Shown in pieces: positions 12,315 through 15,580 of a stretch of DNA of 64,000 nt. Origin of the DNA: Thermococcus sp. (GTDB lineage Archaea; Methanobacteriota_B; Thermococci; Thermococcales; Thermococcaceae); contig NZ_JALVUC010000019.1 in the NCBI RefSeq assembly GCF_027023865.1, positions 317,803 through 381,802 of the forward strand. The letters are read 5' to 3'. The first letter of the stretch is position 1, and each line of letters opens with the position of its first letter. Made by a program: the position numbers and the translations under genes. The notes below the pieces were generated by a model. The model did not search any database. It was not told the origin of the DNA and worked only from the letters and a program-made list of their open reading frames with translations.

Positions 12315-13535
12315 ATGATACTCCAAGTTGCCCTTGACCTTACTGACGTTGAACAGGCCATTTCTATCGCAGAGAAAGCTGCACATGGCGGCGCTCACTG
12401 GCTTGAGGTCGGGACTCCGCTCATCAAAAAGGAAGGTATGCGCGCGGTCGAGCTTCTCAAGAGGCGCTTCCCTGACAGGAAAATCGTTGCGGACCTCAAG
12501 ACAATGGACACCGGTGCTTTGGAGGTTGAGATGGCGGCAAGACACGGTGCGGATGTTGTTTCTATCCTCGGCGTTGCAGATGATAAGACCATCCTCGATG
12601 CAGTTGATGTCGCAAGGAGGTATGGGATTAGGGTGATGGTCGATCTTATAGGCGTCAAGGATAAGGTGAAGCGCGCCAAGGAACTGGAGAGGATGGGTGT
12701 TCATTATATACTTGTCCATACTGGTATAGACGAGCAGGTTCAGGGAAAAACTCCATTGGAAGACCTCGAGAAGGTTGTTAAAGCCGTTAAGGTTCCCGTG
12801 GCAGTTGCAGGCGGTTTAAACCTTCAGACCATCCCCAAGGTTGTGGAACTCGGTGCGACAATAATAATCGTTGGCGGGGCCATTACAAAGGCAAAAGACC
12901 CCGGGGATATCACAAGAAAGATAATCGACATCTTCTGGGGAGAGTATATGATGACCATACGGAAGGCCATGAGGGACATAACGGAACACATAAACAGCGT
13001 TGCCGACACCATAAAGCTCGAGCAGGTTCGCGGCTTCGTCGATGCGATGATAGGGGCCAACAAGATATTCATCTACGGCGCTGGAAGGAGTGGCCTCGTT
13101 GGTAAGGCATTCGCGATGAGACTCATGCATCTCGACTTCAACGTCTACGTCGTCGGCGAAACGATAACACCAGCCTTCGAACCCGGCGACATCCTTATAG
13201 CGATAAGCGGTTCGGGAGAGACCAAGAGTATCGTCGACGCGGCACAGATAGCGAGGGCCGAGGGAGGAAGGGTCGTGTCCATAACCTCCTACGCCAACTC
13301 CACCCTAGGAAAGCTCGCCGATGTGGTCGTTGAGATACCCGGCAGAACTAAGGAGGACGTCCCTACGGACTATATAGCCAGGCAGATGCTTACGAAGTAC
13401 AAATGGATTGCTCCTATGGGAACCCTTTTTGAGGATTCCACCATGATACTTCTCGACGGGGTTATAGCCCTCCTTATGGCCACCTTCCAGAAGACGGAGA
13501 AGGACATGCGCAAGAAGCACGCAACACTGGAGTGA
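12315..13535 (+). CDS. Bifunctional 3-hexulose-6-phosphate synthase / 6-phospho-3-hexuloisomerase
   Basis: This 406-residue fusion carries HPS (residues about 1-210: LQVALDLTDVEQAISIAEKA, VADLKTMDTG, DLIGVKDKVKRAKEL, VAVAGGLNLQTIP) and PHI (about 216-406, a SIS-type isomerase: IFIYGAGRSGLVGKAFAMRL, ISGSGETKSIVDAAQIA). Together they interconvert ribulose 5-phosphate plus formaldehyde and fructose 6-phosphate. Thermococcales lack a normal pentose phosphate pathway and run this in reverse to make ribulose 5-phosphate. GTTTAAAAAGT (about 12261) is a likely TATA box and GGAGGCGAGGAG the ribosome site. Confidence 0.96.
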   Translation: MILQVALDLTDVEQAISIAEKAAHGGAHWLEVGTPLIKKEGMRAVELLKRRFPDRKIVADLKTMDTGALEVEMAARHGADVVSILGVADDKTILDAVDVARRYGIRVMVDLIGVKDKVKRAKELERMGVHYILVHTGIDEQVQGKTPLEDLEKVVKAVKVPVAVAGGLNLQTIPKVVELGATIIIVGGAITKAKDPGDITRKIIDIFWGEYMMTIRKAMRDITEHINSVADTIKLEQVRGFVDAMIGANKIFIYGAGRSGLVGKAFAMRLMHLDFNVYVVGETITPAFEPGDILIAISGSGETKSIVDAAQIARAEGGRVVSITSYANSTLGKLADVVVEIPGRTKEDVPTDYIARQMLTKYKWIAPMGTLFEDSTMILLDGVIALLMATFQKTEKDMRKKHATLE

Positions 13536-13588
13536 ACGAACCGAAAAGGATATGAACGCCCATCCTTATTTTCCTTTTAGGGGTGGCG

Positions 13589-14344
13589 ATGGAATCATTT
13601 ACTCACCTGTTCGTTGGAATAGGGAATGCCGGTGCTCGAATCGTCAACAACATAAGCGCGGACGGTACGGTTAGGGTTACCGTTAACCCCGCCTATCTCC
13701 TCATGCCCCGCGCCAAAACTTACGAAAAAAAGCTCCGCGACTTCTTCTCCCGCCTTCCGAAAAACACATTTCTCTGGCTTATCTTCGAGGATAAGGAAGC
13801 AAACCACCTCGTCCGCCAGATAATAATAGAGAGCGTTCCCTCCGACACGATAAAACTCGCCTACGTCCTCACACCCCGGAGGGAACTCGTACACGAGGGA
13901 AAGCCCCCCTGGGCAGATGATTTTGAGACCGTCTTCTACGACTCCCTATGGGACTTTTTCTCGGGGCCTGACGAACCCCTCGCCACGGCCTTCCATGCCG
14001 CCTCACGGCACATAGCGGAGATGTTCTCCCGCTTACACTACTACCTTGAGAGTCAGATGCTCGTAAACATAGATTACGCGGATCTCTTTAACATGATAAA
14101 GGGCGGAAACGTCGGAATCCTCCGCCTCCTCCACAGGGTTGACTTCAACTGGCACTGGGGAATCTGGGAGCGTGGCCTTGTAGGTATCCTCGTTGGGAGC
14201 GAGTTTCCCCTGATGAACGCACACAGAATACTTAAGAACTTCCAGGAGGTACTCTCCGAAAAGGACATAATCTGGGGGGTCATAATCGACGAGAACCTCG
14301 ACAGGGAGGTTGAGATACTCTCCCTGCTGGTCAAGAAGTGGTGA
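13589..14344 (+). CDS. Divergent FtsZ/tubulin-like protein lacking the GTPase G-box
   Basis: The 251-residue protein begins with a Rossmann-like strand and glycine turn, FVGIGNAGARIVNNI, in the place of the FtsZ VVGxGGAGxN motif. Its C-terminal half resembles the FtsZ second domain: LVNIDYADLFNMIKGGNVGI matches the LxNxDFADxxxVM-GG-A region, and DIIWGVIIDENLDREVEI matches IIWGAxIDENLxxxVRV. The GGGTGTG phosphate loop expected near residues 80-95 is absent (FEDKEANHLVRQ is found there), so GTP hydrolysis is unlikely. The ATG at 13589 follows AGGGGTGG. It is 53 bases after hps-phi and next to the HAD gene. Function unknown; possibly a structural or regulatory FtsZ relative. Confidence 0.65.
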   Translation: MESFTHLFVGIGNAGARIVNNISADGTVRVTVNPAYLLMPRAKTYEKKLRDFFSRLPKNTFLWLIFEDKEANHLVRQIIIESVPSDTIKLAYVLTPRRELVHEGKPPWADDFETVFYDSLWDFFSGPDEPLATAFHAASRHIAEMFSRLHYYLESQMLVNIDYADLFNMIKGGNVGILRLLHRVDFNWHWGIWERGLVGILVGSEFPLMNAHRILKNFQEVLSEKDIIWGVIIDENLDREVEILSLLVKKW

Positions 14345-14348
14345 TAGT

Positions 14349-14993
14349 ATGGAGGCGGTGTTCTTCGACATAGACGGGACCCTGCTAACGGAGATGCCCC
14401 TCATAGAGATGTTCCTACCGCAGGTCTACGAGAGGCTCTCGAAGAAGCTTGGGGTGGACAGGGAAAGAGCCAGGGAACGCTTCTTAAATGAGATATTTAA
14501 CAGGCGGGAAACATACGACTGGCACGACTGGAACTTCTTCTTTAAGCTCTTCGACCTCGATATGGACTATGGGGAACTCATGAAGCGCTATCCTCACAAG
14601 CTCCACGTTTACCCGGACACGGTCCCGACCCTCGAGTGGCTTAAGGATGAGGGCTACAGACTCGGTGTCATAACCAGCGGGCCTGAATACCAAAGGCTCA
14701 AACTTGAACTGGCAGGCTTAAGTGGCTACTTTAAGGTAGTGGTCACGAGAGAGGATGTTAGGGCCATAAAGCCCGAGCCAGGCGTTTTCCTCTACGCCCT
14801 TGAGAGGCTGGGAGTTGATCCTGAAGAGGCCATTATGGTGGGTGATTCCCTCAGCCAGGACGTCTACGGTGCAAAGAACGTTGGGATGGCCACCGCCTGG
14901 ATAAACAGAGGGAGAGAGCCCGGCTACCACATGGCGGACTATGAAATAAGAACCCTTCACGAGCTTAGAAAAATCCTGGGGGGAAGAGAATGA
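14349..14993 (+). CDS. HAD-superfamily phosphatase
   Basis: This 214-residue hydrolase has all four HAD motifs: FFDIDGTLL (nucleophile Asp6 and Asp8), VITSG, the lysine of AIKPEPGVF, and IMVGDSLSQDVYGAKN, with a helical cap between motifs I and II. It resembles the YjjG/2-haloacid dehalogenase-like group of small-molecule phosphatases. The substrate cannot be assigned. The ATG (14349) comes four bases after the FtsZ-like gene and its own end overlaps the next gene (ATGA), so the three appear to be one operon. Confidence 0.85.
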   Translation: MEAVFFDIDGTLLTEMPLIEMFLPQVYERLSKKLGVDRERARERFLNEIFNRRETYDWHDWNFFFKLFDLDMDYGELMKRYPHKLHVYPDTVPTLEWLKDEGYRLGVITSGPEYQRLKLELAGLSGYFKVVVTREDVRAIKPEPGVFLYALERLGVDPEEAIMVGDSLSQDVYGAKNVGMATAWINRGREPGYHMADYEIRTLHELRKILGGRE

Positions 14994-15238
14994 AAGAAAT
15001 ATTCAACGAGAGTGGGATTTTTGTGGAATACGAGGAGAAAAAGGTTAAGATGGAGAACGGCCACGAGCTGACCCATAGGAGCGAGGAACCGACTGAACTG
15101 TGGTGGAAGTTGAAGGAGGCAGTGAAGGGCAGGAAAGTACGAATCGTTGTTTACCTTTTTCTTCCAGAAGGCCTCGCCCTTCAGGGTAGGGATGCAGTAA
15201 ACCACCCAACTACCCTTAAACCGTCGAAACCCTTTTAA
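14990..15238 (+). pseudogene. Small gene truncated by an IS relic
   Basis: The frame starts with an ATGA overlap on the HAD gene and reads MKEIFNESGIFVEYEEKKVK, ending its host-like part at KGRKVRIVVY (about residue 54). From about 15152 the bases are the inverted copy of the IS end seen at 774-835, so the last 25 or so codons come from the element. No continuation of the original protein could be found after the element. I do not recognise the family. The host may tolerate the change if only a few codons were replaced. Confidence 0.55.
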
Positions 15239-15580
15239 GTTTTTGCAACTTAATAAGGCCTCGGAGAGGCCACTCAAGAACAACCCGATGAGATGAGGGG
15301 TTTCACGTTACCACTCTGCTTTAGAGTGGTTTGACGCTGTTAAGCGTCTTCAAAAGACTGCCCGCTGAGGCAGTCTGAAACTAACGAGTGGGCCTTTGGA
15401 ACGATAACCCCAATCCGCTCTGTGGTAGGGGTAACGGGCCGAAGACCCGGCCTTCGGGCTGAGCTGAAACTGGTGACGGGAGTAGGTGGATGAGTGCCCG
15501 TAAACTTCCCCGTCTTTAGCGAGGGGTTAATTTGTCAGAACCCTCGCCATTCACGGCGAGGAGGAGGTCAGGAAGGGGAA
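15152..15580 (+). mobile_element. tnpB-less IS200/IS605-type relic with both ends
   Basis: The left end (15152-15212) is the reverse complement of the sequence at 774-835: AAGGCCTCGCCCTTCAGGG next to AACCACCCAACT, with about 50 of 60 positions alike. After it comes a stretch like the tnpB 5' flank (ACCCTTAAA, then CTTTTAAG). The right end (about 15506-15580) has two hairpins, CCCCG..CGAGGGG and CCTCGCC-attcac-GGCGAGG, then GAGGAGGTCAG. No transposase or complete tnpB is present. A frame of about 40 codons (15367-15492) could be a tnpB 3' remnant. It interrupts the operon between the small gene and the DUF4392 gene. Confidence 0.7.
15308..15505 (+). ncRNA. Chain of strong hairpins inside the IS relic, candidate structured RNA
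   Basis: Five stems follow each other: CCACTC/GAGTGG (15311-15329), GACGC/GCGTC (15333-15348), a perfect 8-bp AGACTGCC/GGCAGTCT (15355-15376), ACCCC/GGGGT (15407-15432) and, beside it, CCGAAG/CTTCGG (15439-15457). Such density of perfect stems is not expected in coding DNA. In this kind of element the guide RNA (omega RNA) of TnpB comes from the 3' part of tnpB and the right end. A retained omega RNA is the natural reading, but expression is unproven. Confidence 0.5.

Follow-up and report, generated by a model that had tools for sequence, protein, structure and literature searches.

The window analyzed here is a 64,000-nucleotide stretch of Thermococcus sp. DNA (RefSeq assembly GCF_027023865.1, contig NZ_JALVUC010000019.1, positions 317,803 to 381,802 of the forward strand). 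It carries a gene encoding a short FtsZ-like protein whose family, judged by residue conservation, keeps the part of the FtsZ active site that acts in trans while most of the GTP-holding half is gone. Two subunits together form the active site on which FtsZ filaments depend, and a protein with one half only is of interest for that reason. The gene is real and conserved, not an annotation artefact, and represents a new variant within the tubulin/FtsZ superfamily; the combination of a tubulin/FtsZ fold with the loss of the GTP-holding parts is nearly certain.

We compared 71 loci with an intact copy of the gene, one of them being the window itself; they encode 68 distinct proteins (three are repeats under another identifier), and some loci may come from the same genome, entered through two collections. 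For the family alignment, 41 of these loci were chosen by eye for spread, and a broken copy described below (L071) was left out. The FtsZ alignment used for comparison holds 27 of 52 FtsZ sequences, picked by the motif G[GN]GTG, with CetZ left out. Because of this choice, the conservation of T4 in the FtsZ alignment is by construction, whereas T7 played no part in the selection.

An earlier note on this DNA, made from the sequence alone, had described the protein as FtsZ-like, based on a Rossmann-type GxGNAG turn at the N-terminus and a near copy of IIWGAxIDENL in the C-terminal half. Both are there (GIGNAG near the start of the protein and DIIWGVIIDENL, respectively), and profile searches detect homology to FtsZ beyond chance. 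The window protein scores 24.9 bits against the NCBIfam ftsZ model (TIGR00065; E 1.2e-5, cut-off 295.2) and 17.8 bits against Pfam FtsZ_C (E 0.0043, gathering score 27); it passes neither curated cut-off and falls outside the TIGR00065 equivalog. A phmmer search of PDB with the single sequence gave Methanocaldococcus jannaschii FtsZ as best match (E 0.0044), the profile of the 41 family members matched FtsZ in PDB at E 4.5e-7, and hhalign aligned the family profile with that of the 27 FtsZ1/FtsZ2 sequences at E 2.7e-11 (probability 97.3). At E 0.1, 20 of the 41 members matched FtsZ_C and one matched Tubulin (PF00091). The ftsZ model has four matches in the window's own genome, of which the FtsZ-like protein ranks lowest; by our reading of their sequences, the three longer genes ranked above it are probably FtsZ1, FtsZ2, and CetZ.

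Structure prediction points the same way. An AlphaFold2 model (10 sequences) had a mean predicted local distance difference test score (pLDDT) of 72.3 and a predicted template modeling score (pTM) of 0.75, with high confidence over the first 90 residues (block means 81-95) and low confidence over the last 30 (33-45). All 50 matches listed by Foldseek in PDB were FtsZ; the best had E 4.1e-6, and query-based TM-scores ranged from 0.47 to 0.64. The model matched FtsZ over residues 1-250 or nearly so. VIA-align superposed it on Pseudomonas aeruginosa FtsZ (1ofu_A) with Z 15.2 and a root-mean-square deviation of 4.2 Å over 238 residues, a high deviation, though perhaps unsurprising for a shortened protein modelled with uneven confidence; the CetZ structures 3zid and 4b45 gave Z 14.6 and 13.8. 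The two-domain fold of the superfamily with its central H7 helix was recovered by AlphaFold2, Foldseek, and VIA-align, and no other fold appeared in the profile searches or the structure prediction.

In FtsZ, loops T3 and T4 hold the phosphates of GTP and T6 contacts the guanine. Loops T3 to T6 together with the Asp of H7 hold the nucleotide, partly as outlined in PMC8936486 and partly as general background. We mapped the losses by a global profile alignment of the 41 family members against the 72 positions at which all 27 FtsZ agree. None of the four invariant T3 residues is kept, all being deleted, and none of the six in T4, where five are deleted and the sixth is replaced. T5 has lost its F, E, and G and is 7 residues shorter than in FtsZ, and the Asp and Gln of T2, the Asn and Lys of T6, and the Asp of H7 are replaced in all 41 members. 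The earlier note had remarked on the missing GGGTGTG loop; the window protein has no GGGTG-type motif, and the loop is conserved as missing across Thermococcales, neither the tubulin signature GGGTG[ST]G nor any GGGTG-like motif being present in any of the 68 distinct homologues. The loss of the GTP-binding loops is old and fixed. Some parts of this half persist: G10, G12, and G15 of T1 are invariant in the 68 proteins (the next Gly and Asn of FtsZ T1 are not kept), the T2 Asn position holds N in 30 of the 41 members and D in the rest, and 35 of the 41 have Arg or Lys at residue 98, next to a variable residue 97.

The T7 loop is a different case. The FtsZ synergy loop N-x-D-x-x-D is present throughout, and in the form N-x-D-x-A-D its residues N160, D162, A164, and D165 are identical in all 68 distinct members; in the profile alignment, the N and both D of FtsZ T7 are each kept in 41 of 41. 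This conservation stands out in a family in which aligned members share as little as 47% identity with the window protein and 50 of 251 columns are invariant among the 41 members: T7 ranks fourth among 243 nine-residue windows, behind three that cover FETVFYDSLWDF, the stretch replacing T6. In beta-tubulin, T7 faces an unhydrolysed GTP and the acidic residue at its third position has been lost, in contrast to the present family, which keeps both acids. In Staphylococcus aureus FtsZ, as outlined in PMC8936486, N208, D210, and D213 of T7 in the upper subunit and D46, Q48, G72, and R143 of the lower subunit share one active site on GTP, and the substitutions N208L, D210N, D213N, D46A, and R143Q suppress assembly. 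Using the motifs NTDAQ, NxDxxD, and EGxxR (our own reading, with the S. aureus numbering of that source), we find that N208/D210/D213 correspond to N160/D162/D165, whereas D46 corresponds to A35, Q48 to L37, G72 to the deleted T3, and R143 to residue 97; D46 and Q48 have no counterpart in any of the 41 members. The description of the protein as catalytically dead in the earlier note thus holds for its own nucleotide site, which lacks T3, T4, the Asp of H7, and some of T5, but not for its invariant trans-acting loop.

Within Thermococcales, the gene was found in 89 of 94 genomes, the match being full length or nearly so except for a partial copy in G026. Among genomes with a completeness of 90% or more and a contamination of 5% or less the count was 72 of 74, which leaves out G002 and G088, whose matches are canonical FtsZ only. 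In the five genomes without the gene the locus is broken or unassembled: the contig ends within the upstream gene for 3-hexulose-6-phosphate synthase/6-phospho-3-hexuloisomerase (HPS-PHI) in G016 and G032 and within the downstream HAD hydrolase gene in G088, and no HPS-PHI was found at all in G002 and G077. No family member was recognised in 21 non-Thermococcales genomes of the phylum. Weak matches occurred in only two of these (G037 and G047): one in G047 falls within what scores as an ordinary FtsZ gene, and both the gene matched in G037 and another weak match in G047 were read as FtsZ with an intact G-box. No member was found at E 1e-10 in 200 genomes drawn from one other archaeal phylum, a search without a positive control there. 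A peptide-pattern scan of genome contigs returned 9 loci, all Thermococcus or other Thermococcales/Thermococci by title. One genome (G095) contains, besides its intact locus (L070), a second, broken copy beside the HAD and following genes (L071, G095:C2:356000-366500), with 6% of HPS-PHI matched; this reflects either a duplication or a mixed assembly.

The order HPS-PHI, FtsZ-like gene, HAD hydrolase, on one strand, is found in all 71 loci, and the genes further out vary. The earlier note had placed the gene in an operon with a HAD phosphatase, and a HAD hydrolase indeed adjoins it in each of these loci: its start lies 4 nucleotides downstream in the window and -23 to +8 nucleotides from the FtsZ-like stop overall, as measured to the start codon nearest the window's HAD start. 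Unmentioned in that note was the gene that leads the operon, HPS-PHI, an enzyme of the ribulose monophosphate (RuMP) pathway. Its stop codon lies at most 56 nucleotides before the FtsZ-like start in 68 of the 71 loci (5-12 nucleotides in 44, and 26-56 in 24, including the window, positions 13536-13588), and in the other three, with gaps of 187, 863, and 864 nucleotides, something may lie in between. We infer co-transcription from the spacing; where the gap between HPS-PHI and the FtsZ-like gene is of the longer form, a separate promoter may lie in it. A sigma-70 promoter scan has no bearing on an archaeon.

In a tree of the part from H7 to the C-terminus, the family is placed beside the FtsZ2 of Thermococcales with a support of 94/100, on a very long branch (5.2 changes per site); CetZ is represented there by one row, itself on a very long branch. 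When CetZ was left out, none of 200 bootstrap trees (0%) had FtsZ2 as a group of its own without the family, but approximately unbiased (AU) tests rejected neither a separate FtsZ2 group (p 0.21) nor a separate group of Thermococcales FtsZ2 (p 0.33). The tree favours the family being an FtsZ2-like paralogue of FtsZ, an unproven relationship. With FtsZ1 and FtsZ2 (TIGR00065) the family shares the fold, H7, the T7 motif, and the S9 motif IIWGxxIDExL. It differs, besides the absent T3/T4 and the shortened T5, in a length of 245-260 amino acids (68 distinct members) vs 364-424 and in having almost no C-terminal tail: the protein stops at the last core strand, and the linker and conserved end peptide of FtsZ, which serves as the SepF/membrane anchor, are absent. 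CetZ proteins share the superfamily fold; by its GTP site the present family is probably not CetZ, which has an intact GTP site, whereas the T4 loop is missing from all 68 proteins. A separate CetZ-like gene of the genome (L078, our own reading) keeps GGGTGAG, and the cetZ of Thermococcales adjoins pilin genes, as outlined in PMC9856176, in contrast to the HPS-PHI and HAD genes found here. The FtsZl1 and FtsZl2 families (Makarova and Koonin 2010) are likewise divergent FtsZ-like families found by remote homology; membership was rejected, the Tubulin_2 match that is a feature of FtsZl1 being absent from the 41 members at E 0.1. A phage origin was also rejected, the PHROGs match being at chance level only (E 0.47).

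What the protein does can be proposed from these patterns. Its action as a regulator or partner of true FtsZ, suggested in the earlier note, is the likeliest reading. We tentatively favour a specific form of it, with somewhat less than even confidence: a one-sided, nucleotide-free FtsZ paralogue acting as a filament end cap and GTPase activator. Through its T7 face it would attach to the terminal FtsZ (or CetZ) subunit of a filament, on the side that carries GTP, and complete the composite active site, thereby promoting GTP hydrolysis in the neighbour. Because its own top face would hold no GTP, the next subunit could not add and growth would be blocked; capping and GTPase activation together would limit or disassemble filaments. 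The FETVFYDS patch that replaces T6 would have another binding target, either a partner or a metabolite, and might thereby tie division to the pentose-phosphate/nucleotide supply from the HPS-PHI of the operon. The whole scheme, i.e. an order-wide half-site FtsZ serving as a terminating, GTPase-activating cap, with the old pocket turned into a FETVFYDS receptor that couples division to this supply, is doubtful.

Two further observations are consistent with an end cap. Possible FtsZ targets exist in all 94 Thermococcales genomes, each with an ftsZ-model match over the cut-off and most with three matches, and little follows the core in the family members. There are also precedents of principle. 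The N-terminal part of ARC3 is a degenerate FtsZ domain, and ARC3 reportedly (from the title of a paper) enhances the GTPase activity of FtsZ2. ARC3 of plant chloroplasts binds FtsZ and inhibits its assembly, as outlined in PMC5855766; it has a MORN domain and belongs to the plant lineage, the likeness drawn here being one of description. Among septin pseudoGTPases, some filament subunits have lost GTP hydrolysis, and perhaps binding, yet kept assembly and stay in filaments (outlined in PMC10731463); septins are another GTPase family, certain of them stay GTP-bound, and the abstract of that source describes no trans-acting catalytic loop.

Several points weigh against a capping activator. The operon partners are metabolic and not division genes. 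The model has pLDDT below 50 at T7 residues 157-161, leaving the geometry there at low confidence, and T7 could be kept for folding alone. Several residues beyond T7 that are invariant in FtsZ are changed or deleted, a stretch there being missing altogether, so that the bottom face is not wholly FtsZ-like. On the alignments, the loss of the GTP half is also incomplete, given the T1 glycines, the T2 Asn, and basic residue 98; the last may preserve an R143-like charge, which would blur the split between the two half-sites and not undo it.

A structural hetero-subunit or adaptor, joining FtsZ filaments inside or at the end by its T7 face and presenting FETVFYDS and WHWGIW with no hydrolysis stimulated, would account for the strong conservation seen at two places, the side of T7 and the patch replacing T6, as for two binding faces, and follows the septin precedent (PMC10731463, as outlined above). 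We consider it rather unlikely, since both catalytic Asp are kept without exception, which suggests chemistry beyond contact. A tubulin fold repurposed for a metabolic job, in which it would serve HPS-PHI and the HAD hydrolase as scaffold or sensor and have no relation to FtsZ filaments, is favoured by the fixed gene order, by the conserved small open reading frame (ORF) that follows HAD in 70 of the 71 loci (in the exception, L015, the contig ends first), and by the tight HAD spacing. It does not predict unchanged T7 catalytic residues, and within a single order such an arrangement may persist without need, though the outer genes do vary; this explanation, too, is unlikely. The invariant T1 glycines and the basic residue 98 would fit a rebuilt pocket with remaining affinity for a nucleotide or another phosphate ligand, acting as a small-molecule switch, but T3 and T4 are gone and the glycines can be kept for the turn alone, making this explanation quite improbable. 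That the gene is decaying or is an assembly or gene-calling artefact, for which the broken second copy in G095 might speak, was rejected with hardly any doubt on the grounds of its conservation, its near-universal presence in the order, and the assembly breaks or unassembled loci behind the five absences.

If a capping activator is indeed at work, a natural one-half subunit would serve as an inbuilt terminator and as an activator of GTPase, a form of FtsZ control that our searches of open-licence PubMed Central (PMC) literature did not bring up. The protein would be a candidate division regulator in Thermococcus and its relatives, and a means of studying the two halves of FtsZ catalysis apart from each other in vitro. 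The same literature yielded no description of the family in searches on Thermococcales tubulins, pseudo-GTPase or degenerate FtsZ, T7 and capping, ARC3, and GTP-less tubulins, and nothing for the locus tags TK0475/TK0476; matches to PH and PF locus numbers look unrelated by title. PMC9856176 mentions that two Thermococcus strains each have one further tubulin-superfamily protein of high divergence; these may or may not belong to the family described here. Earlier notice elsewhere, e.g. as an arCOG, is possible.

Table 1 Features of the FtsZ-like gene and its operon in the window.
Feature	Position	Strand	Evidence or remark
HPS-PHI, bifunctional 3-hexulose-6-phosphate synthase/6-phospho-3-hexuloisomerase	12315..13535	+	NF041755, 545.4 bits (cut-off 500)
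FtsZ-like gene without nucleotide-binding loops	13589..14344	+	251 amino acids plus stop; ORF, homology, fold
S1-T1 remnant VGIGNAGA	13613..13636	+	Residues 9-16; FtsZ profile alignment, conservation in homologues
Place of deleted T4 G-box, IFEDKEAN	13781..13804	+	Residues 65-72; FtsZ profile alignment
S6-T6 replacement FETVFYDSLWDF	13922..13957	+	Residues 112-123; most conserved stretch of the family
T7 loop MLVNIDYAD	14057..14083	+	Residues 157-165; N160, D162, A164, D165 invariant
S9 motif DIIWGVIIDENL	14264..14299	+	Residues 226-237; S9 motif of FtsZ
HAD hydrolase, TIGR02253 (CTE7) family	14349..14993	+	175.9 bits (cut-off 169.75)
Conserved small ORF	14990..15238	+	After HAD; 82 amino acids here, 58-67 in the 15 relatives printed

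The FtsZ-like gene is taken to start at its ATG, and an in-frame GTG is also present at 13583. The small ORF has no Pfam or NCBIfam match, and its last codons in the window are altered by an inserted repeat. This repeat, a 417-bp stretch at 15155-15571, is absent from the same place in two relatives (L044 and L002) and is multi-copy in the genome, with 42 matches including itself (40 of 78 candidates scored) and eight other copies of more than 250 bases at 76-90% identity. It folds strongly as single-stranded DNA (z -4.4) and has sub-threshold Rfam matches to HgcC (E 1.6e-5) and sot0042 (E 0.00047); it is probably a non-autonomous IS605-type remnant.
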